Assembly: GCF_002868735.1 (NCBI RefSeq)
Contig: NZ_CP025611.1
Span: 2,994,501 to 3,058,500 of the forward strand
From: Niveispirillum cyanobacteriorum
Lineage (GTDB): Bacteria; Pseudomonadota; Alphaproteobacteria; Azospirillales; Azospirillaceae
DNA: 64,000 nucleotides
Reading direction: 5' to 3'
Made by a program: the position numbers and the translations under genes. Positions within the stretch are counted from its first letter, which is position 1, and every line of letters begins with the position of its first letter. Below the pieces are notes generated by a model. It had not been told where the DNA came from. It saw only the letters and a list, made by a program, of their open reading frames with translations, and ran no database searches. This document shows positions 12,527 through 31,108 of this stretch, piece by piece.

Positions 12527-12534
12527 GGGTAATG
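12527..12534. repeat. Left 8-bp target-site duplication of the IS66 element
   Basis: GGGTAATG here is identical to 15062-15069 directly after the right inverted repeat. Eight base pairs is the duplication length characteristic of IS66-family elements. Confidence 0.85.
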
Positions 12535-12555
12535 GTACGCGTCCGGTGTGAGCCG
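12535..12555 (+). repeat. IS66 left terminal inverted repeat
   Basis: It starts GTACGCGTCCGG and matches the right end at 15 of 21 positions. The boundary is fixed by the adjoining 8-bp duplication. Confidence 0.75.
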
Positions 12556-12619
12556 CCTTGTGTTTGGTGGTCTGTAGCTGGGAGTCTTTGCGTAAGCGCG
12601 ATAGCGCGGACGCAAACGA

Positions 12620-13050
12620 GTGGCAAACGAGATGGCTTATCAGCGGCTGGAGGTTTTGACGGGCACGGAGCGGCGTCGGAAGTGGTCGGATGCGGAGAAG
12701 GTCCGGCTGGTTGAGGCGGCGTTCAGGCCCGGCATTGTGGTCCAGGATGTTGCCCGGCGGTTCGGGGTCCACGAGAGCCTGCTATACCGGTGGCGCCGAC
12801 AATTGGGCGTATCGGTTTCGCCGGTCGATAGCCCGGTTCCGGTGTTCGCGCCGGTTCGGCTGTCCCCTGTGGATGAGCCGATGACTATGCCGGTCGCGGA
12901 GGCGGCGATGCCGGCCCCCACCCCCCCCCCACGGCATCGGTCGCGGAGATCTCGGTGTTTCTGCCCGGCGGGGTCGAGGTGCGGCTGCGCGGGTCAGTGG
13001 ATCTGGCGCTGGCCAGGGCAGTGATCCGGGCGGCCGGAGGGGCGGGATGA
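12620..13050 (+). pseudogene. tnpA: IS66 TnpA (OrfA), frameshifted at a C10 tract
   Basis: The N-terminal part is a normal IS66 OrfA with a helix-turn-helix: RRRKWSDAEKVRLVEAAFRPG, then VQDVARRFGVHESLLYRWRRQLG. After the homopolymer C10 (12921-12930) the frame runs to a stop at 13024 with an arginine-rich tail. In another frame the same DNA encodes the expected OrfA end VFLPGGVEVRLRGSVDLALA and stops at 13048-13050, overlapping the tnpB ATG (ATGA). That coupling shows which frame is ancestral. A tract of C11 or C8 would restore it. The start could be GTG 12620 or ATG 12632. Confidence 0.8.
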
Positions 13051-13394
13051 TCCCGATCCCGCCGGGGGTGCATGTGTGGCTGGCGACGGGGCGGACGGAC
13101 ATGCGCAAGGGGTTCGACAGCCTTGCCCGGCAGGTGCAGGAGGTTCTTGGGCGCGATCCCCATGGCGGTCACCTGTTCGTCTTTCGTGGCCGCCGCGGCG
13201 ATCTGGTGAAGGTCATCTGGCATGACGGCCAAGGCGCCTGCCTGTTCACCAAGCGCCTGGAGCGCGGCCGGTTCATCTGGCCGTCGGTGGTGGACGGGGC
13301 GGTGACGCTGAGCCCGGCCCAGTTGGGCTATCTGCTGGAAGGGATCGACTGGCGGCTGCCGCAGCACACGGCCCGGCCCGAACGGGCGGGCTGA
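13047..13394 (+). CDS. tnpB: IS66 TnpB (Orf2) accessory protein
   Basis: The protein has 115 residues and matches the IS66 Orf2 family: VWLATGRTDMRKGFDSLA, then GGHLFVFRGRRGDLVKVIWHDGQG and LFTKRLERGRFIWP. This is the usual length. It is needed for transposition of IS66 elements, though its biochemical role is unclear. Its ATG overlaps the restored tnpA stop, and tnpC follows after 42 bases. Confidence 0.92.
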   Translation: MIPIPPGVHVWLATGRTDMRKGFDSLARQVQEVLGRDPHGGHLFVFRGRRGDLVKVIWHDGQGACLFTKRLERGRFIWPSVVDGAVTLSPAQLGYLLEGIDWRLPQHTARPERAG

Positions 13395-13436
13395 AAAGCT
13401 GCAGACAAGACGGCGTGGGCATGATTCAATGACCCC

Positions 13437-15038
13437 ATGTCCAGCCCCAATCCTCCCGCCCAAGCTGCCGACAACCTGCCTGCCGATCTGGCGGCGGCCC
13501 ATGCGCTGATCCTGGCATTGCAGGGGGAATTGGCGAGGGCGCGCCAACAGGCCGGTGAACGGGCGATCGAGATCGAACGGCTGCGTCTGGCTCTGGCCAA
13601 GGCCCGGCGGGAGCTTTACGGCCAATCCTCCGAGCGGGGCCGGCTGCTGGTGGAGCAGTTGGAACTGCAACTGGAAGAGTTGGAGGAGACCAGCGCCGAA
13701 AACGAGGTGGCCGGCGAACTCAGCACGCCCGCCCCCGCCCTTGCCGTCACACCGCGCAAACCGGCCCGGCGGCCGCTGCCGGAGGCGCTGCCACGGGAGC
13801 GGATCGTGCATCCGGGGCCTTGTGTCTGCGACCGCTGCGGCGGCGATACCTTGCGCAAGATCGGCGAGGATGTGCTGGAAAGCCTGGAATGCGAACCCCG
13901 CCGCTGGAAGGTGGTGCAGCATGTGCGGGAGAAATTCGCCTGCCGGTCCTGCGAGGCGGTGAGCCAGGCGCCGGCACCCTCCCATCCGATCCGGCGCGGG
14001 CGGGCCGGGCCGGACCTGCTGGCCATGGTGCTGGCCGGGAAATATGCCCAACATCTGCCGCTGCACCGGCAGAGTGCCGCCTATGCCCGGGAAGGGATCG
14101 ACCTGGACGTTTCCACTCTGGCCGACTGGGTCGGCGCGGCGGCGGCAACCCTGGCCCCGCTGGTGGCGGCGATACGCTCCCACGTTCTGGCGGCTGATCG
14201 TTTCCATGGCGATGACACGCCGGTGCAGGTTCTGGCCAAGAGCCTGCCCCGGACCCGATCCGGGGGCAAAGCCGCCACCGGCCGACTATGGGTCTATGTG
14301 CGGGATGATCGACCGTTCGGCGGTAGCGATCCGCCCGCCGCCCTCTACCATTATGCCCGCACCCGTGCCGGCGAGCATCCGCAGCGCCACCTGGCCGGCT
14401 GGGCCGGGATATTCCAGGCCGACGCCTATAGCGGCTATGCCGGCCTCTACGATCCCGCCCGCAAGCCCGGTCCCCTCCTGGAGGCCGGATGCTGGAGCCA
14501 TGTCCGCCGCCGGTTCTTTGATCTGGCCAAGGATGGAAAGTCACCCCTGGCAGCCGAGGCCGTGAAGCGCATCGACGCGTTGTTCGCCATCGAGCGGAGC
14601 ATCAACGGCCGCGCCATCGCGGAACGTGCCGAAACCCGCCAGGAGAAAAGCCGTCCCCTGATCGACGATCTGGAGCAATGGCTGCGCCACGCCTGTGCCC
14701 GCCTGTCGCCCAAGTCAGATCCGGCCAAGGCCATGGACTATGCTTTGAAACGTTGGGGCGCCATGACCCGGTTCCTGGAGGATGGGCGCATCTGCCTGTC
14801 AAACAATGCCGCCGAACGCGCCCTGCGCGGCATCGCCGTCGGACGCCGGAACTGGACCTTCTGCGGCTCCGATGCTGGCGGCGACAGGGCCGCCGCCATC
14901 TACACCCTCATCGAGACCGCAAAGCTCAACGACGTCGATCCCCAAGCCTGGCTCGCCGACACCCTCGCCCGCATCCATGATCATCCCGCAAAGGCCATCA
15001 CCGACCTCTTGCCATGGAACTGGAAGGCAAAGCCCTGA
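13437..15038 (+). CDS. tnpC: IS66 TnpC transposase
   Basis: The protein has 533 residues, full length for the family. An N-terminal leucine-rich coiled coil is followed by the zinc-finger segment CVCDRCGGDTLRKIGEDV and then CRSCEAVSQAP. The DDE catalytic core follows: first Asp in AADRFHGDDTPVQVL, second in FQADAYSGYAGLYD, CWSHVRRRFFDLAK, and the glutamate in NNAAERALRGIAVGRRNW. The C-terminal IS66 tail DVDPQAWLADTLARI is present. The gene appears intact. Confidence 0.95.
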   Translation: MSSPNPPAQAADNLPADLAAAHALILALQGELARARQQAGERAIEIERLRLALAKARRELYGQSSERGRLLVEQLELQLEELEETSAENEVAGELSTPAPALAVTPRKPARRPLPEALPRERIVHPGPCVCDRCGGDTLRKIGEDVLESLECEPRRWKVVQHVREKFACRSCEAVSQAPAPSHPIRRGRAGPDLLAMVLAGKYAQHLPLHRQSAAYAREGIDLDVSTLADWVGAAAATLAPLVAAIRSHVLAADRFHGDDTPVQVLAKSLPRTRSGGKAATGRLWVYVRDDRPFGGSDPPAALYHYARTRAGEHPQRHLAGWAGIFQADAYSGYAGLYDPARKPGPLLEAGCWSHVRRRFFDLAKDGKSPLAAEAVKRIDALFAIERSINGRAIAERAETRQEKSRPLIDDLEQWLRHACARLSPKSDPAKAMDYALKRWGAMTRFLEDGRICLSNNAAERALRGIAVGRRNWTFCGSDAGGDRAAAIYTLIETAKLNDVDPQAWLADTLARIHDHPAKAITDLLPWNWKAKP

Positions 15039-15040
15039 AT

Positions 15041-15061
15041 GGGCCTACGCCGGATGCTTAC
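15041..15061 (-). repeat. IS66 right terminal inverted repeat
   Basis: Read inward it is GTAAGCATCCGGCGTAGGCC, the GTAA start being typical of IS66 ends. It begins two bases after the tnpC stop. Confidence 0.8.
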
Positions 15062-15069
15062 GGGTAATG
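15062..15069. repeat. Right 8-bp target-site duplication of the IS66 element
   Basis: GGGTAATG is identical to 12527-12534. Joining the two flanks gives the uninterrupted upstream region of receptor 2. Confidence 0.85.
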
Positions 15070-15099: not shown

Positions 15100-15129
15100 T
15101 TGACATTAAAGTTTACATCGTAATAAATA
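15100..15129 (+). promoter_or_regulatory. Promoter of the acylglycerol operon with overlapping TetR-type operator
   Basis: TTGACA (15100-15105) is a consensus -35 box. TAAATA (15124-15129) or TAATAA (15121-15126) is the candidate -10. Between and over them lies TTTACATCGTAAT (15112-15124), with TTAC-N3-GTAA symmetry. The same motif, in the context TAAAGTTTACATTGTAAA, precedes the SDR gene at 23469. An overlap of operator and core promoter predicts repression, most simply by the TetR protein encoded at the end of this operon. Confidence 0.6.
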
Positions 15130-15172: not shown

Positions 15173-17347
15173 ATGGGATCGCGTTTCAAGGCAGCGACGC
15201 TTCGCGTCGCCTGCGTGGCTGCCTGCACGTCTACCTCAGCCATCGCCTATGCCCAATCGACACCGACGCCGCCCGCCAGGGACGAGATGGTGTTGGAGGA
15301 AATCATCGTCACCGCCCAGAAGCGCGATGAACGGCTTCAGGAAGTTCCGGTCTCCGTGTCCGTCTTCGGCGCGCAGGGTCTGGAAATGGCCAAGATCGAC
15401 AGTGGCACCGAGATCGCGCGCCAGACGCCCAATCTGCGGGTGTCGGTGCTGGGTAACGAGAACCAGCCGAAATTCGCCCTGCGCGGCATCTCCACGTCCG
15501 AGTTCAATCTGAACGCCGTGTCGCCGACCGGTGTCTTCTATGACGAGGTCTATGTCGGTGCGCAGTATCTGGGTGGCGCCCAGGTGTTCGATATCGAGCG
15601 GATCGAGGTGCTGCGCGGACCGCAGGGCACGCTGTTCGGCAAGAACACCACGGCAGGCGCCGTCAACTATATCTCCCGTGGCCCCAGCTTCATGCAGGAA
15701 GCGGAGATGAGCATCGGGGCCGGCAGCTATGGCTATGTCGAGGCCAAGGGCGTGGCCGAGGTGCCTCTGGTCGAAGACCGGCTGTCCGCCCGCTTTGCCT
15801 TCAATGTGGCCCATTCCAAGGGCTATATCGAAAATGTGAATCCAGCCATTTCCGACCGGTCGAATATCGACCGCAAGGCCGGCCGCCTGACCCTGGGCTA
15901 TCAGGATGAGAACGACCTGAAGGCGACGCTACGCATCTTCCATAATGGGTCGGATGCCAAAGCCATCGGCGTCATCAATACCGGTACCGCACCGGGCGGG
16001 TTGAACGCCCTGGGTGTCGACCCCCGCGTCAACCCCTATACCGGCCAGCGCATGACCCGCCATCAGATGGCGACCGACCGCGACGGCGACCTGGAGGTGC
16101 GGGGCAGCGGGCTTTATCTGAATGTGCAGAAGGATCTGGGGCCTGTCTCCATCACCTCCATCACCTCCCACCTGCGCGGCCGGTTCCTGAATAATGTCGA
16201 TGCCGATGGCACGACCCGGAACCTGCTGCACATCGATTTTAGGGCAAAGAACAAGGAAACCAGCCAGGATCTGCGTATCGCCACCAACGGGTCCGGTGCC
16301 TTCAACGTCATCGCGGGTCTGTACTATTTCCGCGACGATATCGATATCGATACAACCTACACGATTTTCGGCGGTCCGCCCGTTCTGCCCATCCTGAACC
16401 AGAGCTTCGATCAGCGCCGCACCTCCTATGCGGCCTATATCGACGGCACCCTGGAACTGTCTGACATGTTCACGGCCTATGGCGGCCTGCGCTACACCGA
16501 TGACAAGGGACGGCTTTCCAACTTCCAGGTGACACCGGTCATCGCCAAACAGCCGACCCTGACCTATCACGATGCCAAGCCGACGGGCCGTGTCGGCCTG
16601 CGCGCGCAGTTGGACGATGATGTCATGCTGTTCGGGCAGTTTGCCCGTGGCTATCGCAGTTCCGCCTTCAATGGTGGCGCCCTGACCAATGCAGCCGACC
16701 TCAACGTCGCCGACCCGGAAAAGCTGGACGCCTACGAGGTCGGCCTGAAATCGCAATGGCTCGACCGCCGCCTGACGGCCAATGTGTCGACCTTTCTCTA
16801 TAATTTCAGCAATCAGCAATTCATCAATCTGGTCGGCATCAATAATCAGCAACTGGTCAATGCCGGCAAGTCAAGGACCAAGGGTGTGGAACTGGAACTG
16901 TCGGCGCGGGTGACGCCCGAACTGACGGTCAATGCCGGCCTGGGTCTGTTGGATGCCGAATATCGGCGGCTGGTGCTGAACGGCGTCAATCTCAGCGGCA
17001 ACGACATGATCGAGGCGCCGCATCATACCGCCAATATAGGCGCGGATTACCGCATCGATCTGGATAATGACGGTGCCATTCTTTTGCATGCCGATGCCAC
17101 GCATGTCGGCAAGCAATATTTCCAGGCCAACAATTCCGCCCTGTCGCGGGGCGAGGCCTTCTGGGATGTCGGTGCGCGTGTCGCCTACCGTGCGCCGGAT
17201 GATCGCTATGAATTGTCAATCTATGCCAAGAACCTGACCGACAACCGGGAGGTCACGGGCATCGTGGTCGATGCGACCAGCCAGACACGTTTTGCGACCG
17301 TCCCCTATCCACGCCGCTTCGGGGTAGAATTATCTGGCAAATTCTGA
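15173..17347 (+). CDS. TonB-dependent outer-membrane receptor 2 (acylglycerol operon)
   Basis: The protein has 724 residues. A signal peptide ends around AIAYAQ, and the TonB-box region is EEIIVTAQKRDERLQEVPVS. The plug domain contains RIEVLRGPQGTLFGKNTTAGAVN, and the barrel ends RFGVELSGKF. GGGAGAG lies eight bases before the ATG. It heads a tight operon: a lipase starts 15 bases after its stop. That context suggests the receptor takes up a glycerolipid, a lysophospholipid or a fatty-acid conjugate; nothing in the barrel itself proves the ligand. The promoter is intact despite IS66 inserting just upstream. Confidence 0.88.
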   Translation: MGSRFKAATLRVACVAACTSTSAIAYAQSTPTPPARDEMVLEEIIVTAQKRDERLQEVPVSVSVFGAQGLEMAKIDSGTEIARQTPNLRVSVLGNENQPKFALRGISTSEFNLNAVSPTGVFYDEVYVGAQYLGGAQVFDIERIEVLRGPQGTLFGKNTTAGAVNYISRGPSFMQEAEMSIGAGSYGYVEAKGVAEVPLVEDRLSARFAFNVAHSKGYIENVNPAISDRSNIDRKAGRLTLGYQDENDLKATLRIFHNGSDAKAIGVINTGTAPGGLNALGVDPRVNPYTGQRMTRHQMATDRDGDLEVRGSGLYLNVQKDLGPVSITSITSHLRGRFLNNVDADGTTRNLLHIDFRAKNKETSQDLRIATNGSGAFNVIAGLYYFRDDIDIDTTYTIFGGPPVLPILNQSFDQRRTSYAAYIDGTLELSDMFTAYGGLRYTDDKGRLSNFQVTPVIAKQPTLTYHDAKPTGRVGLRAQLDDDVMLFGQFARGYRSSAFNGGALTNAADLNVADPEKLDAYEVGLKSQWLDRRLTANVSTFLYNFSNQQFINLVGINNQQLVNAGKSRTKGVELELSARVTPELTVNAGLGLLDAEYRRLVLNGVNLSGNDMIEAPHHTANIGADYRIDLDNDGAILLHADATHVGKQYFQANNSALSRGEAFWDVGARVAYRAPDDRYELSIYAKNLTDNREVTGIVVDATSQTRFATVPYPRRFGVELSGKF

Positions 17348-17361
17348 CCGGAGGCCCGTCG

Positions 17362-18261
17362 ATGGACACGCAATTCACCCTCACGCGCCCTGATGGGCAA
17401 AGGTTGGCCTGTTATCGCTGGTCCAAGGACGGGCCTGTACGGGCTGTGATCGTGGTAGCGCACGGCATGGGCGAACATGCCCTGCGCTACCGGCCGGCCC
17501 TGGCCGCCCTGGTCGATGCCGGCTACATCCTGTATGCGCTCGACCATCGCGGCCATGGTGCCACCATCGCCCTGTCCGACCGGGAGGCCGGCGATTTCGG
17601 CCCCGGCGGCTTTGCGGCGGTGGTGGCCGATCTGGCCGCCCTGGTTGACCGGGCCAGGGCGGACCAGACGGATTTGCCCCTGTTCCTGCTGGGGCACAGC
17701 ATGGGTTCCTTCATTGGGCAGGCCTTCCTGATCGATCATGGCGACCTGATCGACGGGGCCGTTCTGGTGGGGACCACAGCGGTCGATCTGCTGGCTGCCG
17801 CCATGGCGGCGGAAAGCGATGCGTTGGCGGCACTGAACCGTCCGTTCGAACCCGCCCGCACCCCCTGTGACTGGCTCAGCCGTGACGAGGCCCAGGTCGA
17901 TGCCTATATCGCCGATCCGCTGTGCGGCTTCTCCTTGGTGCCGCATTCCATGGTGTCGCTGCTGTCGCAGGGTGCGCGGCTGGCCGATCCGGCGGCGCTG
18001 GCGCGTATCCCGTCCGGTCTGCCGCTCTATGTGCTGGTCGGCGATCAGGACAGCCTGACAACACAGTTCGGGCAGTTGCCGCCCCTGCTGGACCGCTACC
18101 GCGCAGCGGGCCTCGACCCGGTGCTGGCGTCGTATCCCGGTGGACGCCACGAGATCCTGAATGAAATCAACCGCGATGACGTGGTGAGAGACCTACATGC
18201 CTGGCTTGAGCGAACCATCGCCATCCTGCCCCCTCGCACCCGCCGGGGTGATCCCGGATGA
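17362..18261 (+). CDS. Alpha/beta hydrolase, monoacylglycerol-lipase / lysophospholipase type
   Basis: The protein has 299 residues of the serine-aminopeptidase S33 / MGL family. The oxyanion region is VVAHGMGEHALRY; the next segment is ALDHRGHG. The nucleophile is Ser113 in LLGHSMGSF, with acid VGDQDSLT and catalytic His in PGGRHEILNE near residue 265. No signal peptide is seen, so it acts in the cytoplasm or is membrane-associated. GGAGG precedes the ATG. It overlaps or abuts glpD. Position between the receptor and glpD/glpK predicts release of glycerol and a fatty acid from an imported acylglycerol. Confidence 0.8.
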   Translation: MDTQFTLTRPDGQRLACYRWSKDGPVRAVIVVAHGMGEHALRYRPALAALVDAGYILYALDHRGHGATIALSDREAGDFGPGGFAAVVADLAALVDRARADQTDLPLFLLGHSMGSFIGQAFLIDHGDLIDGAVLVGTTAVDLLAAAMAAESDALAALNRPFEPARTPCDWLSRDEAQVDAYIADPLCGFSLVPHSMVSLLSQGARLADPAALARIPSGLPLYVLVGDQDSLTTQFGQLPPLLDRYRAAGLDPVLASYPGGRHEILNEINRDDVVRDLHAWLERTIAILPPRTRRGDPG

Positions 18262-19708
18262 CCGGCCCTATGACCTGCTGATCATCGGCGGCGGCATCAA
18301 CGGCACCGCCATTGCGCGGGCCGCCGCCATGGCCGGGGAACGCGTGCTGCTGGTGGAGCGGGATGATCTGGCTCAGGCCACGTCCTCGGCTTCCACCAAG
18401 CTGATCCATGGCGGATTGCGCTATCTGGAACACCGGCAGTTCAAGCTGGTGCGCGAGGCGCTGGCGGAACGGGCCATCCTGCTGCGAACGGCCCCCCATC
18501 TGGTGCGGCCCATGGAATTCCGGCTGCCGCATGCGCCCTCCATGCGGCCCTGGTGGATGGTGCGCCTCGGCCTTTATCTGTACGACCTGTTCGCTCTGGG
18601 CGGTGGCTTGCCCCGCTCGCGGTCTGTACCGCTGGACGATGCCATCCTGGCGGCCGATCATGGTACCGGCTTCAGTTATTGGGATGCCTGGGTGGATGAC
18701 AGCCGGCTGGTCGTCCTGAATGCGCTGGCGGCGGCGGAAGCCGGCGCCGACATCCGCACCCGCACCCGGTTCGTCGGGGGCGTGCGGCAGGGGCCGGTCT
18801 GGCGGGCCGCACTGGAAACAGCGCACGGCACAGTCACCGTCGCGGCGCGGCGTGTGGTGAATGCGGCGGGTCCGTGGGTGGAACGGGTGCTGTCCGAAGG
18901 TCTGGACCGGCGGGGCCAGTATCGTATCCGTCTGGTGCGCGGTAGCCACCTGATCCTGCGCCGCCGGCTGCCGCACAATCATGCCCTGATCCTGCAGCAA
19001 CCTGACCGGCGCATCATCTTCATCATCCCCTATCAGGGGGATATGACCCTGGTCGGCACGACCGACTTCGCCGTGGACGATCCATCGGACAACCGCATCT
19101 CGGCTGAGGAAACCGCCTATCTGCTGGATGCCGCCAACCGATATCTGCGCGATCTCGTTGGTGAGACCGACATTGTCGGTGACTTCGCCGGCATCCGCCC
19201 CCTGTTCGATGATGGACGCGATGAAGCCAGCACGGTTACGCGCGATTACCGGTTGGAACTGGATGCCAACGGTCCACCCCTACTAAGTATCTTCGGGGGC
19301 AAGCTAACCACAGCCCGCCATCTGGCTGATATGGTTTTGGGCCGGTTGGGTATCGCGGGCGGTGATACCGCAGCCACGCCGCTGCCCGGAGGCGACATAG
19401 CGGATTTCGATGCGTTTCGGGACGCGACCCGGCGTCGCTGGCCCTTCCTGGAGCGTGAGACCCTGGACCGTCTGGCCGGCGCCTACGGAACGCGTCTGGA
19501 ACGATGGATGCAGGGTGTCGGCACGCTTGCCGACATGGGCATCGATTTCGGTCATGGGTTGAGCCAGCGGGAGGTCGATTACCTGGTGCGGGCCGAATGG
19601 GCGCACAGCAGTGACGATATCCTGTGGCGGCGGACACGGCTGGGCCTGCGCTTCAGTGCCAGTCAGGCTGCCCGACTGGATGCCTATCTGCGGGAGCGGG
19701 CGCCATGA
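18197..19708 (+). CDS. glpD: Aerobic glycerol-3-phosphate dehydrogenase
   Basis: The protein has up to 503 residues. The N-terminal FAD Rossmann motif YDLLIIGGGINGTAIARAAA is followed by the GlpD signature STKLIHGGLRYLEHRQFKLV. It also carries RGSHLILRRR, MTLVGTTDFAVDDPSDN, the FAD-contact segment FAGIRPLFDD, and the C-terminal DAO domain. It oxidises glycerol 3-phosphate to dihydroxyacetone phosphate at the inner membrane and reduces quinone. The start is uncertain: ATG 18197 overlaps the lipase by 65 bases, while GTG 18248 would shorten the overlap to 14 bases and lose only an unconserved leader. It ends in ATGA with glpK. Confidence 0.92.
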   Translation: MPGLSEPSPSCPLAPAGVIPDDRPYDLLIIGGGINGTAIARAAAMAGERVLLVERDDLAQATSSASTKLIHGGLRYLEHRQFKLVREALAERAILLRTAPHLVRPMEFRLPHAPSMRPWWMVRLGLYLYDLFALGGGLPRSRSVPLDDAILAADHGTGFSYWDAWVDDSRLVVLNALAAAEAGADIRTRTRFVGGVRQGPVWRAALETAHGTVTVAARRVVNAAGPWVERVLSEGLDRRGQYRIRLVRGSHLILRRRLPHNHALILQQPDRRIIFIIPYQGDMTLVGTTDFAVDDPSDNRISAEETAYLLDAANRYLRDLVGETDIVGDFAGIRPLFDDGRDEASTVTRDYRLELDANGPPLLSIFGGKLTTARHLADMVLGRLGIAGGDTAATPLPGGDIADFDAFRDATRRRWPFLERETLDRLAGAYGTRLERWMQGVGTLADMGIDFGHGLSQREVDYLVRAEWAHSSDDILWRRTRLGLRFSASQAARLDAYLRERAP

Positions 19709-21189
19709 TCAGGGACCAGATCATCGCCATCGACCAGGGCACGACATCGACCCGCGCCATCCGGTATGCCGCCGATGGCTGCGTGCTAGCGGTCGCCAGC
19801 CAGCCCATACGCCTTGCCCATCCGCAGCCCGGCTGGGTGGAGGCGGATGCCGAACAACTCTGGATCGGCGTGCAGGATTGTGTGCGTCAGGTCATGGATG
19901 AACGGGTCGCAGCCATCGGCATTGCCAATCAGCGTGAAACCGTCCTGCTATGGGACCGCGACAGTGGCCGCGCCTTGCACCCTGCCATCATCTGGCAGGA
20001 TCGGCGGACAGCGGCACAATGTGAGGCGCTGCGGGCTGATGGCGCAGAAGAACTGGTCCGGGCGCGTACTGGTCTGTTGCTCGACCCCTATTTTACCGCA
20101 ACTAAGCTCGGCTGGTTGCTGGACCATGTGCCCGGTGCCGCCGCCTTGTCGGCACAGGGAAGGCTGGCCGCCGGCACGGTCGACAGTTTCCTGCTCTGGC
20201 GGTTGACGGGGGGCCGGTCCCATCTGACCGACGCCACCAATGCCAGCCGGACCTCCCTGTTCGATATCCATCGACTGTGTTGGGATGCGGACCTGCTGAC
20301 ACTGTTCGATATACCGGGCAGTATCCTGCCCACCGTGGCCGGCAACTGTCGTGATTTCGGGCAGACCGATATCCGTGTGACGGGGCGACCGGTTCCCATC
20401 ACTTGCATGGCCGGCGATCAGCAGGCGGCTATGATCGGGTTAGGGTCCGTTCTGCCTGGACGCATGAAGGCGACCTATGGCACGGGCTGTTTCCTGCTGG
20501 CCCATACCGGTGACAAGCCGCTGCTGTCACGTCACCGGCTGCTGACGACCTTGGCCTGTCTGGTTGATGGCGAGGCAGCCTATGCCTTGGAAGGGTCGAT
20601 CTTCGTGGCAGGGGCGGCATTGAACTGGCTGCGCGATGGGCTGGGCATCGTCCACGGCTATGATGGGATCGCTTCATTGGCCGCCAGCGTGCCCGATGAC
20701 CATGGCGTGCATCTGGTGCCGGCCTTTGTGGGGCTGGGCGCCCCGCATTGGCGCAGCGACCTGCGGGCCAGCCTGACCGGCCTGACGTTGGATACCGGCC
20801 CCGCCACCATCGTGCGCGCAGCGCTGGAGGCGGCGGCCTTCCAGACCTGCGACCTGATCCAGGCTATGCAGGCCGACGGGCTGGTGCCACAGGATGTGCG
20901 CATCGATGGCGGCATGGCGTCGAACGACTGGTTCGCGGGATATCTGGCGGATATGACGGGCCTGTGCGTGGACCGGTCCCGTAATCATGAGGCCACGGCC
21001 TGGGGGGCCGCACGGCTGGCCGGGTTTGCCGCGGGCATCTGGCCCGACCCGCGCCGCGTGCCTGTTCTGTCCGGGCTGGATCGGTTCACGCCATCCATTG
21101 ATGGTGCACACCGGCAGCGGCGTCTGACCGGATGGCGTGACGCGGTTCACCATCTCCTGTCCTCCACATCACCTCCGGAAGGAACGTGA
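19705..21189 (+). CDS. glpK: Glycerol kinase
   Basis: The protein has 494 residues of the FGGY kinase family. The ATP-binding start is IIAIDQGTTSTRAI. It is followed by ANQRETVLLWDRDSGRALHPAIIWQDRR, LTDATNASRTSLFDIHRL, MAGDQQAAMIGLG, the second phosphate motif YGTGCF, and DGGMASNDWFAGYLADM. It phosphorylates glycerol to glycerol 3-phosphate, the GlpD substrate. The ATG at 19705 overlaps the glpD stop (ATGA), implying coupled translation. The order glpD-glpK within a lipase/acyl-CoA-ligase operon, with no glpF facilitator, fits an internal glycerol source. Confidence 0.94.
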   Translation: MIRDQIIAIDQGTTSTRAIRYAADGCVLAVASQPIRLAHPQPGWVEADAEQLWIGVQDCVRQVMDERVAAIGIANQRETVLLWDRDSGRALHPAIIWQDRRTAAQCEALRADGAEELVRARTGLLLDPYFTATKLGWLLDHVPGAAALSAQGRLAAGTVDSFLLWRLTGGRSHLTDATNASRTSLFDIHRLCWDADLLTLFDIPGSILPTVAGNCRDFGQTDIRVTGRPVPITCMAGDQQAAMIGLGSVLPGRMKATYGTGCFLLAHTGDKPLLSRHRLLTTLACLVDGEAAYALEGSIFVAGAALNWLRDGLGIVHGYDGIASLAASVPDDHGVHLVPAFVGLGAPHWRSDLRASLTGLTLDTGPATIVRAALEAAAFQTCDLIQAMQADGLVPQDVRIDGGMASNDWFAGYLADMTGLCVDRSRNHEATAWGAARLAGFAAGIWPDPRRVPVLSGLDRFTPSIDGAHRQRRLTGWRDAVHHLLSSTSPPEGT

Positions 21190-21191
21190 CC

Positions 21192-22727
21192 ATGCATGCA
21201 GATATCACTGGCCTCTGTGATGTGGTGGCGGCGCATGCCGTGCCGGGCGACGGCATCGCCCTGTCTGGGATCGGCGCCAGCGTCACCTATGCCCAGCTTG
21301 ACGCCCGTATCCAGGCGGCGCTGGGTGCCCTGGCCGATCTTGGGCTACGTCCGGGTGAACGGCTGCTGCTGCTGCTGCCGACATCGGTGGAGTTCGTCAC
21401 AGTCTATTTCGCGGCGCATCGGGCGGGTCTGGTGGTCATGCCGCTGAACCCGCTGCTGGGCCCTGACGAGGTGCGCCACATACTGGAAAGCATGCGTCCG
21501 GCGGCCATCATCGCGGCACCGGCAGACGGACCCTATCCGGTATTGTCGGCACTGGACGGTCTGGTTACGGACCTGCGGCTCAGCTGTCTTGTCCTGCGCA
21601 GCGGTCCGGATCAGCCGTTCGACCGCGCCATGGCCCGTGCCCGTACCGATCTGCCGCCCGTGCGCCGCGATGGCGGGGAGGAGGCGTTGATCCTGTTCAC
21701 CTCTGGAACATCGGGTCGACCGAAAGGTGCATCCCACCGTGAGGCGGCGCTGATCACCAACGCACGCCACGCCAACGCCGTTTTCTCGATCACCAGCGAT
21801 GATGTCCTGTTATGCCCTTTGCCGTTGAGCCATGTCTTCGGACAGATGGTGATGATGCTGGGCGGGTTGTCGGCGGGGGCGGAACTGTCGCTCGTTCCCC
21901 GCCCTGGCCCCGCCGCGCTGTTCGACGCGATGGTTCAGCGCCGGCCCAGCATCATCGCCGCGGTGCCCGCCAGTCTGGCGGCCGTGGCCGAACAGGCGCG
22001 CCAGACGGAGCATCGTCTGGAACCGGGCCGCCTGCGCTTTGTGCTGGCGGGGGGTGCGCCCTTGCCGGCGGCCACGGGCACCGCATTTCAGACTGCGTTC
22101 GGTGTGCCCGTCCACCAGGGCTATGGCATGACGGAAGTGGCCTGCTGCATCGCGCTGGAACGGCCCGGAACGATGCCGACGGGTGGTGTCGGGCCCCTCT
22201 GCACGCCCCTGTCCCATCGTATCGTGCCGCTGGACCCGGCGGACCCCGATCAAGGTGAATTGCAGCTGGCCGGCCCCAATCTGCTGCGCGGCTATTACAT
22301 TGACGGGACGTTCCAGCCACGCGGTGACGATGAATGGTTCGCCACCGGCGACATTGTTCGCCGCGATGCAGAGGGCACGCTGTTTCTCTGTGACCGGAAG
22401 AAGGAAATGATCATCCGCAACGGCTACAATGTCTATCCGTCAGAGGTGGAGGCGGCGCTGGCCAGCCATCCGGGCGTGTTGCATGTGGCGGTGATCGGCG
22501 TGGCGGATGAACAGGTCGGACAAGAGGTTGCGGCCTATGTTTCCCCCCGGGAAGGGCATGTGCTATCGGCGGACGAACTCGCGGCGTGGTGCCGCGCCCG
22601 CATTGCGCTCTACAAATATCCCCGGTTGATCGCTATTCTGCCTGCGCTGCCCACCAACACGACAGGCAAGATCATGAAGCGCGCCCTGGACACCGCTATT
22701 CTCCGGCGCGTCTCGTTGAGTGGTTGA
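21192..22727 (+). CDS. Fatty-acid / AMP-forming acyl-CoA ligase
   Basis: The protein has 511 residues of the ANL superfamily. It carries the A3 phosphate loop LFTSGTSGRPKGASH (~residue 167), A5 YGMTE, A7 FATGDIVRRDAEG, the hinge LCDRKKEMIIRNGYNVYPSEVE, and the catalytic lysine region TNTTGKIMKRAL. It activates a carboxylic acid, most likely a medium- or long-chain fatty acid, to its CoA ester. GGAAGGAA lies before the ATG at 21192. It follows glpK by two bases and would channel the fatty acid freed by the lipase into beta-oxidation. Chain-length preference cannot be read from the sequence. Confidence 0.88.
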   Translation: MHADITGLCDVVAAHAVPGDGIALSGIGASVTYAQLDARIQAALGALADLGLRPGERLLLLLPTSVEFVTVYFAAHRAGLVVMPLNPLLGPDEVRHILESMRPAAIIAAPADGPYPVLSALDGLVTDLRLSCLVLRSGPDQPFDRAMARARTDLPPVRRDGGEEALILFTSGTSGRPKGASHREAALITNARHANAVFSITSDDVLLCPLPLSHVFGQMVMMLGGLSAGAELSLVPRPGPAALFDAMVQRRPSIIAAVPASLAAVAEQARQTEHRLEPGRLRFVLAGGAPLPAATGTAFQTAFGVPVHQGYGMTEVACCIALERPGTMPTGGVGPLCTPLSHRIVPLDPADPDQGELQLAGPNLLRGYYIDGTFQPRGDDEWFATGDIVRRDAEGTLFLCDRKKEMIIRNGYNVYPSEVEAALASHPGVLHVAVIGVADEQVGQEVAAYVSPREGHVLSADELAAWCRARIALYKYPRLIAILPALPTNTTGKIMKRALDTAILRRVSLSG

Positions 22728-22734
22728 AGACGAC

Positions 22735-23397
22735 ATGGCAACAGACGTTCCACTTCCCCGTCGCCGGGGGCGCCCGCCAGCCGATCCAAAAATTCTGGCT
22801 GTATCGGTACAGGAAGCACGTGACAGCATCTGTGCCGCCGCCCTGACCCTGTTTCAGCAGGGCGGCGTTGACGCGATCAATATGCGGGACGTGGGGCGTC
22901 TGTTGGGTACCTCGCAGATGATGGCCTACCGCTACTTCCCCAGCAAAGATCACCTGCTGATGGAGTTGCGCATCCGGGCGTTTGCGCGCTTTACCCAGGC
23001 CTTGGCTCGCTGGCGGCGGCGGGCGCGACAGGATGCCGACGCGCTGCCCCTGGTCTGTGGTGCCTATCTGGTTTTTGCCTATGCCAACCCCCATGACTAC
23101 CGGTTGATGTTTGACATGTGGGCCTTTGAAAACCCGGAAGCCATGAAGAAGGAATTCGGCGAGAAGGTGCGGCGGCAGTCTGCGTCCTGGCTGGAGATAC
23201 AGGCCTCAGTGTCCCAGTTCCTGGGTCCCCGCGCCGAGCGCGCGGATTTGGGCCAGGCAACCGACATCGTGTGGAGCGGGCTGCACGGCCTGGCATCGCT
23301 GCATCTGGCCCGCAAGCTGGTGTTCGGTCGCAACCTCAAGCATCTGGCCAGACCGGCCATTCGGTCGATCATGGCGGGTCTGACGGCACTCGCCTAA
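22735..23397 (+). CDS. TetR-family transcriptional regulator of the acylglycerol operon
   Basis: The protein has 220 residues. The N-terminus is a TetR DNA-binding domain: RGRPPADPKILAV, AALTLFQQGGVDAINMRDVGRLLGTS, then MMAYRYFPSKDHLLMELRI. The helical ligand-binding domain spans the rest. The ATG at 22735 is preferred; an in-frame GTG at 22720 overlaps the ligase stop. Encoded last in the operon, it would control its own synthesis. The palindromes at 15112 and 23441 are its likely operators, and an acyl-CoA or fatty acid is a plausible inducer, as in FadR/PsrA-type TetR proteins. Confidence 0.82.
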   Translation: MATDVPLPRRRGRPPADPKILAVSVQEARDSICAAALTLFQQGGVDAINMRDVGRLLGTSQMMAYRYFPSKDHLLMELRIRAFARFTQALARWRRRARQDADALPLVCGAYLVFAYANPHDYRLMFDMWAFENPEAMKKEFGEKVRRQSASWLEIQASVSQFLGPRAERADLGQATDIVWSGLHGLASLHLARKLVFGRNLKHLARPAIRSIMAGLTALA

Positions 23398-23440
23398 TAG
23401 CGTGTGAGCCCGCGTTCACATTCTTGAGATGGATATAAAG

Positions 23441-23453
23441 TTTACATTGTAAA
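23441..23453. promoter_or_regulatory. TetR-type operator TTTACATTGTAAA before the HSDL2-like SDR
   Basis: This is a perfect 13-bp palindrome, 16 bases before the ATG at 23469. It lies inside the sequence ATAAAGTTTACATTGTAAAA, which matches the receptor 2 promoter region (TTAAAGTTTACATCGTAATA) almost throughout. The shared motif links this gene to the acylglycerol operon. Confidence 0.6.
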
Positions 23454-23468
23454 ATAAAAGGAGAGACC

Positions 23469-24386
23469 ATGACCCGTTCCCTCAAAGGCAAGACCCTGTT
23501 CATCAGCGGCGGATCGCGCGGCATCGGGCTGGCCATTGCGCTGCGGGCGGCCAAGGACGGTGCCAATGTTGCGATTGCGGCAAAGACAGACCAGCCTCAC
23601 CCCAAGTTGCCGGGTACCATCCATACCGCTGCGACCGCGATTGCGGCGGCTGGTGGGAACGCATTGCCGATCCTATGCGACATCCGCGATGAACATCAGG
23701 TTGCCGCCGCGGTCGCTCGCACGGTGGACAGGTTTGGTGGCATTGACATCTGTATCAACAATGCCAGCGCCATCCGTATGACCCCGATCCTGGAGACGCC
23801 GGTTCAGCGTTTCGATCTGATGCATGGTGTTAACGCGCGTGGGTCTTTCGTCGTGACGCAAGCGGCCTTGCCACACCTGTTGGCATCGGACAATCCGCAT
23901 ATTCTGTCCATTTCCCCGCCACTGCATATGGAGGAGCGTTGGTTTGCTCCCCATGTCGCCTACAGCCTTGCCAAGTTCGGGATGAGCATCATCTCCCTAG
24001 GCGTGGCTGGGGAGTACCGCGGCACGGTCGGTGTGAACTGCCTGTGGCCACGTACGGCCATCGACACCGCCGCGATGACGGAATTCGGGGCGCATGTTGG
24101 TCTGGGCGCGTTGCGCAGTCCGGAAATCATGGCAGATGCCGCCTATCTGATTATGACGTCCGATGCCCGGACCAATACCGGCAATTTTTTCATCGACGAC
24201 GAACTGCTGGCGGCCCACGGCGTTACAGATTTGTCGGCTTATGGCCCCCTCGGCGTGGCGGATGTTGATCTTACGCCTGATTTCTTTGTGCCGTCCTTGC
24301 GGGAACTGCGGTCATTGGACTTGCCCGGAGAAAGTGGAAAGCCCGGCGATCATTTCAATCAGTCTTCCCCGTTCCAGGTAAGGTGA
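23469..24386 (+). CDS. HSDL2-like SDR oxidoreductase
   Basis: The protein has 305 residues. It closely follows the hydroxysteroid-dehydrogenase-like-2 subfamily: TLFISGGSRGIGLAIALRAAK, IAAKTDQPHPKLPGTIHTAA, CDIRDEHQV, ICINNASAI, HILSISPPL, and the active-site YSLAKFGMS (YxxxK), followed by VNCLWPRTAIDTAAM. HSDL2 proteins are tied to fatty-acid and lipid metabolism, although their reaction is not settled; this bacterial form lacks the SCP2 domain of the animal protein. AAGGAGAGA precedes the ATG. Its 3' end overlaps the convergent LysR gene by 32 bases. A shared operator places it in the TetR regulon. Confidence 0.82.
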   Translation: MTRSLKGKTLFISGGSRGIGLAIALRAAKDGANVAIAAKTDQPHPKLPGTIHTAATAIAAAGGNALPILCDIRDEHQVAAAVARTVDRFGGIDICINNASAIRMTPILETPVQRFDLMHGVNARGSFVVTQAALPHLLASDNPHILSISPPLHMEERWFAPHVAYSLAKFGMSIISLGVAGEYRGTVGVNCLWPRTAIDTAAMTEFGAHVGLGALRSPEIMADAAYLIMTSDARTNTGNFFIDDELLAAHGVTDLSAYGPLGVADVDLTPDFFVPSLRELRSLDLPGESGKPGDHFNQSSPFQVR

Positions 24387-25526: not shown

Positions 25527-25577
25527 TCCATAACATCGGGTTATGGACCTGTGCTGACAGGTCAATTGAAATTGTAT
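25527..25577 (+). repeat. Palindromic regulatory module, copy B
   Basis: It contains CCATAAC-N5-GTTATGG and ACCTGT-GCTG-ACAGGT, then GGTCAATTGAAATTGTAT. Relative to copy A the arm bases at positions 24-26 and 31-33 changed together, keeping the second dyad. It lies 45 bases before the MetC-type start, where an activator would sit. Confidence 0.6.
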
Positions 25578-25622
25578 GTCAGTGCCGACATGCTGATCTC
25601 ATCAAACTTGAAGAGGAAGATC

Positions 25623-26804
25623 ATGCGCGACCTTTCCCGTTGCGTCATCCATCCCGCCGTCTCGCATGAAGGCTTTGCCAGCATCGGCGTCCCCACATAT
25701 CGGGCCTCGACCATCCTGTTCGACGATGCCAAATCCTATACCAACCGCAAATACCGGGGGCCGGACGGCTATACCTACGGGCTGCATGGCACGCCGACGA
25801 CCCGCACCCTGGAAGCGCAGCTGACGGCGCTGGAGGGAGGGGAGCGGACGGTGATCGTGCCCTCGGGTCAGGCGGCGATCACCATCGTCTTTCTGGCAAT
25901 CCTGCTGCCGGGCGACCACGTGCTGATCCCCGACACCGCCTATCCGCCCTGTCGAGGCTTCTGCGAGAACTACCTGAAGCCGCGCGGTGTGGAGTATACG
26001 GTCTATGATCCGCTGATCGGGGCGGGGATCGATGCGCTGGTGAAGCCGAACACCAAGCTGATCTGGATGGAAAGCCCCGGCTCCACGACCATGGAGTTCC
26101 AGGATGTGCCGGCCATCGTGAAGGTGGCCAAGGAACGTGGCGGCATCCTGACCGGTTGCGACAATACCTGGGCCACGCCGCTTTTGTTCAAGCCGTTGGC
26201 CCATGGCGTCGATTTCTCCAGCGAGGCGCTGTCCAAATATGTCGGCGGTCATTCCGACCTGCTGATGGGGTCGATCAGCGTCAAGGATGTGGCCCTGTTC
26301 CGTCGGCTGAAGGACACGATGCGGATGATCGGCATCGGCGTCTCCCCGGATGATTGCGGGCTGGCCCTGCGCGGGCTGGAGACGATGGGCGTTCGCATGC
26401 GCCATGCCGATGCAGTGGCGACGGCGTTCGCGCGCCGTCTGGTGGAGCTGCCGGCGGTGGAACGGGTGCTGCACCCGTCGCTGCCCACCTGTCCGGGGCA
26501 TGAGGTCTGGAAGCGGGATTTCACCGGCGCGTCCGGCGTCTTCTCCGTGGTGCTGAAGGCCCCGGCCAATGCCGTAATTGAGGAGGCGTTCGGGGTTCTG
26601 AAGACCTTTGCCATCGGTGCGTCGTGGGGCGGCACACGCAGCCTGATCGTGCCCATGGCGATCAAGGCCGACCGGGTGGCCACCGACTGGACCGATGAGG
26701 GCGTGATCCTGCGCATCTCCGTCGGCATGGAGGATCCGGACGATCTGTGGGCCGATCTGGCGGCCCTGTTCGCAGCACTGGCCGTGCCTGTTCTGGGTGG
26801 TTGA
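25623..26804 (+). CDS. metC: Cys/Met-metabolism PLP enzyme (cystathionine beta-lyase type)
   Basis: The protein has 393 residues of the gamma-family PLP enzymes. It carries YTYGLHGTPTTRTLEAQLTALEGG, the PLP phosphate region VIVPSGQAAITIVFLAILLPGD, the cofactor Asp in LTGCDNTWATPLLFKPL, and the Schiff-base lysine in SSEALSKYVGGHSDLLMG. It probably cleaves cystathionine or a related thioether or cysteine conjugate to an amine, a keto acid and a thiol. The ATG at 25623 follows AGAGGAAG. The next genes encode an amino-acid importer 27 bases away, so a scavenging role is as likely as methionine synthesis; the symbol is tentative. Confidence 0.8.
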   Translation: MRDLSRCVIHPAVSHEGFASIGVPTYRASTILFDDAKSYTNRKYRGPDGYTYGLHGTPTTRTLEAQLTALEGGERTVIVPSGQAAITIVFLAILLPGDHVLIPDTAYPPCRGFCENYLKPRGVEYTVYDPLIGAGIDALVKPNTKLIWMESPGSTTMEFQDVPAIVKVAKERGGILTGCDNTWATPLLFKPLAHGVDFSSEALSKYVGGHSDLLMGSISVKDVALFRRLKDTMRMIGIGVSPDDCGLALRGLETMGVRMRHADAVATAFARRLVELPAVERVLHPSLPTCPGHEVWKRDFTGASGVFSVVLKAPANAVIEEAFGVLKTFAIGASWGGTRSLIVPMAIKADRVATDWTDEGVILRISVGMEDPDDLWADLAALFAALAVPVLGG

Positions 26805-26831
26805 GAGCGGCCAAGCGGCGGAGGACGGGTC

Positions 26832-27902
26832 ATGCGGGGGATCAGCAAACGGCTTCTGGCGGGACTGTGCCTTCTGGCGCTGACTGCCTGTGGGCAGCCG
26901 GCGGCGGAGAAGAAGCCGGCGGCGGGTGGCCCAGTGGGCGGGAACGCCGCAGGGGGCACGCTGAAGGCCGTGCGCGACCGGGGCTATGTCTCCTGCGGGG
27001 CCAGCACGGGCACCGTGGGGTTCGGCGCACCGGACAGCCATGGTTACTGGCGCGGGCTGGATGTGGAAACCTGCCGGGCTGTCGCCGCCGCCGTTCTGGG
27101 TGACAAGGACAAGGTTCGCTTCGTCCCCCTGACGGGGCAGCAGCGTCTGACGGCCCTGCAAAGCGGGGAGATCGATATTCTGCCCCGCACCACCACCTGG
27201 ACGCTGTCGCGCGATGCCAATGGCGTAAATTTCACCCTGCCCAATTACTACGACTATGACGGGATCATGGTCCGCAAGGATCGCGGCGTGAGCAGTTCCC
27301 GTGAGTTGGATGGCGCTTCGGTGTGTGTGCAGACGGGATCGACCACGGAGGTGACCTTCACCAATCTGGTGGCATCGGTGGCCCCCAATCTGAAGGCCGT
27401 GATCTTCGACAGCACGCAGGCGACAAGGCAGGCCTTCTTCTCCGGGCGGTGCGATGCCCTGATCACCGATGCGTCGGGTCTGGCATCGGTGCGGGCCACT
27501 ATGGCCAGCAATCCCGAGGATTTCATCATCTTCCCGGCCGACGGCAAGCTGTCGCCCCTGACGCCCGCTGTCCGGCATGGCGATGACCAATGGTTCGACA
27601 TCGTGAAATGGTCGTTCCAGGCGCTGCTGATGGCGGAGGAACTGGGCATCAATCAGGCCAATATCGACGAGATGCGCAACAGCCAGGACCCGACCATCCG
27701 CCGCTTCCTGGGCGTGGAGCCGGGCAATGGTGCCGCCTTGGGCCTGGATGAGGAATGGACCTACCGCATCGTCAAGCAACTGGGCAATTATGGCGAGATG
27801 TTCGACCGTAATGTCGGGGCCGGAAGCCCGCTGAAGCTGGATCGCGGCCTCAACCGCCTGTTTCGCGACGGGGGCCTGATGGTTCCCATGGCGTTCAATT
27901 GA
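26832..27902 (+). CDS. aapJ: General L-amino-acid ABC transporter, substrate-binding lipoprotein
   Basis: The protein has 356 residues. The N-terminus is a lipoprotein signal with lipobox LLALTAC (MRGISKRLLAGLCLLALTACGQ), unlike most AapJ proteins, which are soluble. The mature part is a family-3 solute-binding protein: LKAVRDRGYVSCGASTGTVGF, GYWRGLDVETCRAVAAAVLG, QQRLTALQSGEIDILPRTTTWTLSRDA and NYYDYDGIMV. It binds amino acids in the periplasm for the AapQM permease. GAGGACGG lies before the ATG. First of a four-gene transporter set after metC. Confidence 0.88.
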   Translation: MRGISKRLLAGLCLLALTACGQPAAEKKPAAGGPVGGNAAGGTLKAVRDRGYVSCGASTGTVGFGAPDSHGYWRGLDVETCRAVAAAVLGDKDKVRFVPLTGQQRLTALQSGEIDILPRTTTWTLSRDANGVNFTLPNYYDYDGIMVRKDRGVSSSRELDGASVCVQTGSTTEVTFTNLVASVAPNLKAVIFDSTQATRQAFFSGRCDALITDASGLASVRATMASNPEDFIIFPADGKLSPLTPAVRHGDDQWFDIVKWSFQALLMAEELGINQANIDEMRNSQDPTIRRFLGVEPGNGAALGLDEEWTYRIVKQLGNYGEMFDRNVGAGSPLKLDRGLNRLFRDGGLMVPMAFN

Positions 27903-27912
27903 GGGGGCGGGG

Positions 27913-29073
27913 ATGACGAACCTCTCCACCCTTCTCCACGACACCCGTACCAGGCAGATCGCGTTGCAGGCCCTGCTGCTGGCGCTGGTGGCCGGTGGTG
28001 TCGGCTGGCTGATCCTCAATACGGTCAGCAATCTGGATGAACGCGGCATTACGGGCGGGTTCAGCTTTCTGGATCGCGCGGCCCGCTTTCCCATCGCGGA
28101 GAGCATCATTGCCTATCGTCCCACCGACAGTTTCGGCTGGGCCTTCCTGGTGGGGCTGGGCAATACGCTGTTCCTGGCCGTGACTGTGGCCCTGGCGGCG
28201 ACTTTGCTAGGCCTTGGCGTGGCGCTGGCCCGTCGGTCGGCCCATCCGCTGACCAGCGGGGCGGCGACCGTCTATGTGGAGGCGATGCGCAACACGCCGC
28301 TGGTGGTGCAATTGCTGTTCTGGTACGCGCTGGTCACGTTGGGGTTGCCCAATATCCATGCGGCCTTCACGCCCATCGACGGCGTGATCCTGGCAGACCG
28401 GGGGCTGTACCTGCCCCGGCCTGTGATGGTGGGCGACAAGGGGCCGTTCCTGGCAGCCCTGGTGCTGGGGCTTGTGGCTGTCGGTGCCGCATGGCGGTAC
28501 GGGCGGGTGCAGCGCCTGCGCACCGGCATTCCCAACCGTTATGGTCGCATCGCCATTCTTTCCACCCTGCTGCTGCTGGGGTTGGTCTGGGTCACAACAG
28601 GTCTAACATTATCGCTGGACCGGCCCGTGATCGGGCGGTTCAACGCGACCGGCGGCATGGGGCTGTCGCCGGAATTCACAGCGGTGTTCGCAGGCCTTCT
28701 GCTCTACTCGGCTGCCTTCATAGGGGAGATCATTCGCGGCGGCATCGACGCGGTGGACAGGGGGCAATGGGAGGCGGGGCGCGCCCTGGGCCTTGAAGAA
28801 GGCAATATCCTGCGCCTGATCGTCATTCCGCAGGCCCTGCGCGTGATCATCCCGCCCATGACCAGCCAATATATCAACATCACCAAGAACACGACCCTGG
28901 CGCTGGCCGTCGGTTACCCCGACATCGCCCTGGTGGCGGCCACCACCATCAACCAGACGGGCCAGGCGGTGGAAGGCATTCTGATCCTGATGCTGGTCTT
29001 CCTGACCCTGTCCATCACGGCGTCGCTGTTCATGAACTGGTACAACCGGCGGATCGCCCTGGTGACGCGATGA
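27913..29073 (+). CDS. aapQ: General L-amino-acid ABC transporter permease
   Basis: The protein has 386 residues with about eight membrane spans and a His/Glu/Gln/Arg permease domain. The long periplasmic insert between spans is typical of AapQ/BztB. The EAA loop is GQWEAGRALGLEEGNILRLIVIPQALRVIIPP, followed by QYINITKNTTLALAVGYPDI. It pairs with AapM in the inner membrane. Its stop overlaps the aapM start (ATGA). Confidence 0.9.
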   Translation: MTNLSTLLHDTRTRQIALQALLLALVAGGVGWLILNTVSNLDERGITGGFSFLDRAARFPIAESIIAYRPTDSFGWAFLVGLGNTLFLAVTVALAATLLGLGVALARRSAHPLTSGAATVYVEAMRNTPLVVQLLFWYALVTLGLPNIHAAFTPIDGVILADRGLYLPRPVMVGDKGPFLAALVLGLVAVGAAWRYGRVQRLRTGIPNRYGRIAILSTLLLLGLVWVTTGLTLSLDRPVIGRFNATGGMGLSPEFTAVFAGLLLYSAAFIGEIIRGGIDAVDRGQWEAGRALGLEEGNILRLIVIPQALRVIIPPMTSQYINITKNTTLALAVGYPDIALVAATTINQTGQAVEGILILMLVFLTLSITASLFMNWYNRRIALVTR

Positions 29074-30907: not shown

Positions 30908-30987
30908 CGGGAATGACCACGCCAACCCGGTGGGGGAGCCCATGATCTCATAGGCCTCCGTCACTCAGACCGTACCGATCCTTTTCC

Positions 30988-31027
30988 CACGGAAGCCCGT
31001 CTTCCGTGAACGGGCAGGCCTTGCCCG
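30988..31027 (+). terminator. Two adjacent stem-loops after the aap operon
   Basis: CACGGAAG-N5-CTTCCGTG (30988-31008) and CGGGCA-N5-TGCCCG (31011-31027) lie in the 201-bp gap between aapP and receptor 3. Without a T-run they may be factor-assisted termination signals or leader structures of the receptor mRNA. Confidence 0.4.
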
Positions 31028-31108
31028 AACCTCCAGGCGCGTCCCGAAGACAGCCGTAAGAGCTGTCCCCAAGCCACCAACCAACCAGCCAATCAGGGAA
31101 CCTACATC

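Follow-up and report, generated by a model that had tools for sequence, protein, structure and literature searches.

Catabolic loci in which a TonB-dependent receptor (TBDR) is linked to enzymes for its substrate are known for polysaccharides and for lignin dimers, and the glp regulon of the Escherichia coli type contains glycerol kinase (GlpK) and glycerol-3-phosphate dehydrogenase (GlpD). To our knowledge, the passage of acylglycerols over the Gram-negative outer membrane is poorly described beyond FadL-type fatty-acid uptake. Here we analyzed seven genes (positions 15173-24386) in a 64,000-nucleotide stretch of Niveispirillum cyanobacteriorum (contig NZ_CP025611.1; the whole stretch is called the window below), which join a TBDR to a monoglyceride-lipase-like hydrolase, GlpD, GlpK, an acyl-CoA ligase, a TetR-family regulator, and a short-chain dehydrogenase (SDR). 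Sequence comparison makes it reasonably probable that the cluster is a TetR-controlled catabolic regulon for a glycerol ester, the likeliest candidate being a mono- or diacylglycerol set free from extracellular lipid. The arrangement had been called undescribed in a preliminary description of this DNA, and we likewise found no system combining a TBDR with an acylglycerol lipase or glp genes in the titles and abstract openings of the papers listed.

All seven open reading frames (ORFs) lie on the forward strand at the coordinates first reported, and Pfam and NCBIfam bear out the proposed families: the TBDR (15173-17347, 724 aa, with an N-terminus that by eye resembles a signal peptide), the serine hydrolase (17362-18261, 299 aa, by eye without a signal peptide), the FAD-type GlpD (18197-19708), GlpK (19705-21189), the AMP-forming ligase (21186-22727), the TetR-family regulator (22720-23397), and the HSDL2-like SDR of the PRK08278 subfamily (23469-24386). 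The hydrolase gene follows the receptor gene after 14 nt; GlpD and GlpK overlap by ATGA (19705-19708), and GlpK and the ligase by GTGA (21186-21189); the ligase and TetR genes also overlap or, if TetR starts at ATG 22735 instead of GTG 22720, are 7 nt apart. The genes from TBDR to TetR share one orientation, and neighbors either overlap or are no more than 14 nt apart, so that a single transcription unit is very likely; the SDR gene, 71 nt downstream of TetR and with its own operator, would be the second unit of the regulon. Comparison with Caulobacter suggests ATG 19705 as the most likely start of GlpK, rather than GTG 19624, from which its frame is open, and perhaps GTG 18248 instead of ATG 18197 as that of GlpD, whose longer frame is retained in AAP38, a strain of the same genus.

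Both promoters of the cluster share the palindrome TTTAC-N3-GTAA. The operon promoter (15100-15128, forward strand; hexamers assigned by eye) consists of the -35 box TTGACA (15100-15105), a spacer of 17 nt, and the -10-like ATAAAT (15123-15128). Between the two hexamers, in the position expected of a repressor site, lies the putative operator TTTACATCGTAAT (15112-15124), which reads TTTAC-ATC-GTAAT. At the SDR promoter the palindrome is perfect (TTTACATTGTAAA, 23441-23453), and -35 and -10 boxes could not be clearly assigned there by eye. Searching the window for the 20-base motif AAGTTTACATNGTAAWAWAA with up to three mismatches gave two matches, at exactly these promoters (0.01 expected from shuffled sequences), which agrees with the earlier observation that the SDR gene carries the promoter motif of the operon. 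The same search of the 6.05 Mb genome gave three matches, those of the cluster with 0 and 1 mismatch, and the exact TTTACNNNGTAAA occurs once, at the SDR promoter; with a single exact palindrome in 6.05 Mb, the motif was rejected as a general promoter element. The third match (L142, positions 1501-1520, on genome contig 2; three mismatches) sits about 270 bases upstream of another TonB-receptor-like ORF; it has no palindrome and was rejected as a member of the regulon. The TTGACATTAAAGTTTAC arrangement at the operon promoter is likewise present in AAP38 (L035) and Caulobacter sp. AP07 (L036), with the operator in the same place, and the less strict TTTACNNNGTAA has two occurrences per 21 kb locus, one at each of the corresponding promoters. 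All three full clusters (3/3) have both operators, and none occurs elsewhere in those loci. Because the operators are nearly unique in the genome and conserved in both relatives, a dedicated two-promoter regulon is well supported. We infer that the palindrome is bound by the TetR protein, acting as a repressor; this protein has a TetR_N helix-turn-helix (PF00440) and the ligand domain TetR_C_33 (PF13305), both above cut-off.

Co-occurrence of the gene set elsewhere, which the preliminary description had proposed as a check, was found outside the genus, although conservation is very narrow: the full seven-gene order with both operators is present in AAP38 at 90-97% identity and in Caulobacter sp. 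AP07 at 59-78% (no literature on AAP38 was found). We scanned 84,980 species with short peptide patterns of the hydrolase, a procedure that may miss divergent members; it confirmed 359 relatives, the best 79 loci were kept, and the full set is in two of them, those of AAP38 and AP07. Close hydrolases (96-100%) are found in 2 of 82 genomes of the window's family (its own counted), both from its genus (11 genomes searched), and the next by E-value is 35% identical. A hydrolase relative at E 1e-40 or better is present in 32 of 299 genomes of AP07's family, exceeding 53% identity in AP07 only; at E 1e-40, 22 of 385 genomes sampled from the class (own counted) have one, exceeding 50% in the window's own genome only. 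At E 1e-150 the class sample contains the receptor in 1 of its 385 genomes, namely the window's own; at E 1e-180 a single genome among 397 from the Sphingopyxis family has it, as do two among 293 from the order of Pseudomaricurvus (both center genomes counted). Given these hydrolase and receptor counts across family, class, and species scan, the full set is seldom found and patchily distributed. For all seven genes, dN/dS is 0.05-0.15 against AAP38, and 0.13-0.35 against AP07, where synonymous sites are partly saturated. Chance neighborhood was rejected, since gene order and operators are conserved.

The hydrolase belongs to Hydrolase_4 (Pfam). Ser113, correctly placed in GHSMG by the preliminary description, is invariant across 14 aligned homologues together with D230 and H263; by alignment, we take these residues to be the Ser-Asp-His triad, and the HGMG motif, common to monoglyceride lipases (MGLs), presumably has the oxyanion role. 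The predicted structure (pLDDT 92.4) has Mycobacterium tuberculosis and human MGL among its top fold matches (TM, by query, 0.71-0.76). Family, fold, and intact triad thus make the protein monoglyceride-lipase-like and suggest activity on monoacylglycerol. GlpD matches the equivalog model PRK12266 (614.6 bits; cut-off 360), its best solved relative being an aerobic glycerol-3-phosphate dehydrogenase (2qcu); the operon GlpD is the sole strong match in Caulobacter AP07 (second match, E 5.6e-4). GlpK passes PRK00047 (550; cut-off 498) and falls below the stricter TIGR01311 (562.4; cut-off 590.35); its NQRET, WQDRRT, LDPYF, and AGDQQ segments align with a solved glycerol kinase (4e1j), and presumably supply the glycerol-contacting Arg-Glu, Trp, Tyr, and Asp of E. 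coli GlpK. Because GlpK adjoins the hydrolase, free glycerol would be a product of the hydrolase.

The TBDR has plug and beta-barrel domains (PF07715, PF00593) above cut-off. Its relatives (at least 57% identity) are directly 5′ of a hydrolase relative in six records of two classes: those of AAP38 and AP07, L037 (a Cellvibrionales metagenome-assembled genome), L038 (Pseudomaricurvus), L052 (Sphingopyxis italica), and L173 (a plasmid of S. macrogoltabida); this adjacency is a biased rate, because all six records were reached via the hydrolase. In a hydrolase tree of 81 rows, the receptor-linked hydrolases (7/7 rows) group together with support 87/81, and the five that remain without two identical Sphingopyxis rows do so with 100/99. 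In two gammaproteobacterial records and in Sphingopyxis, the pair is found with no glp genes.

Related contexts contain different parts of the set. In both Sphingopyxis records the pair (receptor 64-66% and hydrolase 53-54% identical to those of the operon) is followed by a lipase, identified by record annotation and a Pfam alpha/beta hydrolase match, and by a lipase foldase (PF03280), features that set these loci apart from the operon; GlpD, GlpK, and TetR relatives were not found in L052. Of 7 genomes examined, one (S. italica) has the foldase family, and none of 14 control genomes does; a Lif-type foldase (PF03280) was not found in the window's genome, in which no search was made for other secreted lipases. 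The plasmid locus (L173, 1-28831) joins receptor, hydrolase, lipase, and foldase to a ligase, an acyl-CoA dehydrogenase, a biotin carboxylase, and a P450, and may encode a branched-chain or terpenoid ester pathway. Two Actinomadura loci (L049 and L079; 2 of 79) have the order GlpK-GlpD-hydrolase: the hydrolase match (46-51% identical) is directly 3′ of GlpD (37-38% identical), starting 3 bases past its stop; receptor and TetR relatives were not found in these loci, and a distant ligase match is about 9 kb off in L049. Five Nocardia loci (L073, L074, L084, L092, and L102; 5 of 79) contain a ligase, 36-38% identical, that ends 44-59 bases 5′ of the hydrolase match, and receptor, GlpK, GlpD, and TetR relatives were not found in them. 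The lipase/foldase, glp, and ligase contexts lend support to a glycerol ester as the probable substrate and to activation of its acyl part.

These data suggest the following route. The TBDR would carry the ester over the outer membrane; the ester would then cross the inner membrane, for which no carrier is encoded, perhaps diffusing through it (the weakest step), and be cleaved by the cytoplasmic hydrolase. GlpK and GlpD, judged by family membership, would convert glycerol to dihydroxyacetone phosphate, and the ligase, whose reaction class follows from its family, would form acyl-CoA; the SDR might conceivably act on an oxygenated intermediate of the acyl chain. TetR would repress both promoters via the palindrome, a site indicated by its conservation, until released by an acyl ligand or acyl-CoA. 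More tentatively, the TBDR subfamily may be dedicated to the energy-driven import of acylglycerols across the outer membrane, giving neutral lipid esters a route other than FadL, with an intracellular lipase as its partner; in the genus and in Caulobacter the operon would extend this to both halves of the molecule under one TetR switch. Encoded next to a lipase-like hydrolase in two classes of proteobacteria and accompanied by glycerol enzymes or by a lipase and its foldase, the receptor is a concrete candidate for an acylglycerol transporter, and the small regulon with its clear operator is suited to reporter work.

Several observations weigh against the acylglycerol reading. None of the seven genes encodes an inner-membrane carrier, and GlpK/GlpD is found in 2 of the 77 hydrolase loci besides those of AAP38 and AP07. 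A Bacillus carboxylesterase ranks first for the hydrolase by both sequence and fold (TM 0.84), the MGL superpositions on the model have an rmsd of 4.5-7 Å, and a label shuffle test on the hydrolase tree was weak (54 of 500 shuffles were as clustered). On contigs 1 and 4 there are two further GlpK-like genes, about 45% identical, with GlpD-like neighbors, and contig 1 also has a more distant GlpK/GlpD-like pair, so glycerol use in itself would seem not to need the glpK and glpD of the operon; the operon was accordingly rejected as the genome's sole glycerol route. The only new genome from the receptor search (G1392, a gammaproteobacterium) has the receptor without an adjoining hydrolase. The Sphingopyxis neighbors (a biotin-dependent carboxylase, an acyl-CoA dehydrogenase, a P450, and a ligase just 28% identical to that of the operon) do not look like a set for plain fatty-acid use, and the best solved relatives of the operon's ligase are mixed, including feruloyl-CoA synthetase and oxalate-, malonyl-, coumarate-, and benzoate-CoA ligases beside FadD13. 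The terms "self-contained" and "complete route" in the preliminary description are overstated, as the seven genes include neither the carrier nor beta-oxidation, secreted lipase, or TonB genes, and glpK and glpD occur elsewhere in the genome; other loci must supply beta-oxidation, the TonB complex, and any secreted lipase.

The ligase is where the acyl group would be read, and there the evidence is mixed as to whether that group is fatty, aromatic, or branched. None of the best 25 of 107 matching curated models of this AMP-binding protein reaches its cut-off (best, PRK06187, 321 vs. 476); the top models, PRK06187 and PRK05605, are both named long-chain-fatty-acid--CoA ligase. A plasmid search with the ligase gave matches all below 60% identity, the best being 38% among the matches listed, and gave no pointer to the substrate. 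Of the proposed acylglycerol regulon coupling receptor, hydrolase, and the glycerol and acyl arms, the conserved dedicated regulon is supported; the acyl group may be that of a fatty acid. The SDR passes PRK08278 (404.6; cut-off 250), with human HSDL2 (3kvo) as its third best solved relative; its 305 aa hold SDR-type domains only, without, by Pfam, the C-terminal SCP2 domain that we take to be a feature of animal HSDL2, and a literature search for HSDL2 in bacteria gave nothing on a bacterial SDR among the papers listed. Alternatively, the glycerol may be esterified with an aromatic acid or with a branched or oxygenated one, as in a hydroxycinnamoyl glycerol or a fragment of suberin or cutin, and the same route would then lead to a non-fatty acyl-CoA. 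The feruloyl-, coumarate-, benzoate-, oxalate-, and malonyl-CoA ligases among the solved relatives, the P450 and biotin carboxylase of Sphingopyxis, and an SDR that might suit an oxygenated chain would all fit this; we nevertheless regard it as unlikely, given that the curated models ranking highest for the ligase, albeit below cut-off, carry the names of long-chain fatty acid enzymes, that only one carboxylesterase ranks ahead of MGLs when the hydrolase is matched by sequence and by fold, and that the Sphingopyxis pair adjoins a lipase and foldase.

Scavenging of lysophospholipids or glycolipids, with the hydrolase deacylating a lysolipid and GlpD taking the glycerol 3-phosphate, is improbable: in its favor, the hydrolase weakly matches PRK10749, the model for lysophospholipase L2 (36.1; cut-off 362), but the seven genes include no phosphodiesterase or glycerol 3-phosphate permease, and GlpK would be redundant, yet its dN/dS is low. 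Slightly more doubtful still is that the receptor serves iron or another nutrient and adjoins unrelated lipid genes by chance. Its best curated TBDR model is indeed of siderophore type (TIGR01783), and the receptor of G1392 has no hydrolase neighbor, but the score is below cut-off (150.1 vs. 223.5), and receptor and hydrolase adjoin in six other records of two classes. That the cluster was recently assembled and horizontally moved, without an integrated function, is very improbable, for although its distribution is very patchy and an IS66 element lies immediately upstream, dN/dS is low on all seven genes, the operators are conserved between the genus and Caulobacter, and GC content (0.636) is close to that of the window (0.641).

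The IS66-type element (12535-15061) is apparently complete, with a transposase at 13437-15038 (by Pfam) and two smaller ORFs; it is flanked by an 8-base direct repeat, GGGTAATG (12527-12534 and 15062-15069), and lies about 30 bp upstream of the -35 box of the operon. No IS66 match was found in the AAP38 locus. Past the cluster (25551-33709) are genes for a cystathionine beta-lyase family protein, a family 3 solute-binding protein, an ABC permease, and another TBDR, followed by a prophage-like region (34000-64000), mostly on the minus strand, with a terminase-like protein, other phage-type ORFs, and a tape measure protein of 2181 aa that has weak EF-hand matches near its C-terminus.

Parts of the acylglycerol regulon proposed here resemble those of described systems. 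Its hydrolase has the fold, Ser-Asp-His triad, and HGMG motif of Rv0183/mtbMGL and human MGL, but is 26-30% identical to them, and its gene shares a unit with those for a TBDR, the glp enzymes, and a regulator. GlpK and GlpD are the enzyme families of the E. coli-type glp regulon, to which the operon adds the TBDR, hydrolase, ligase, and TetR, the seven genes including no glpF, glpT, or glpR. As in TBDR-linked loci for polysaccharides or lignin dimers, an outer-membrane receptor stands beside the enzymes for one substrate and a regulator; the operon differs from these loci in having no inner-membrane carrier and in its enzymes, which point to a glycerol ester.

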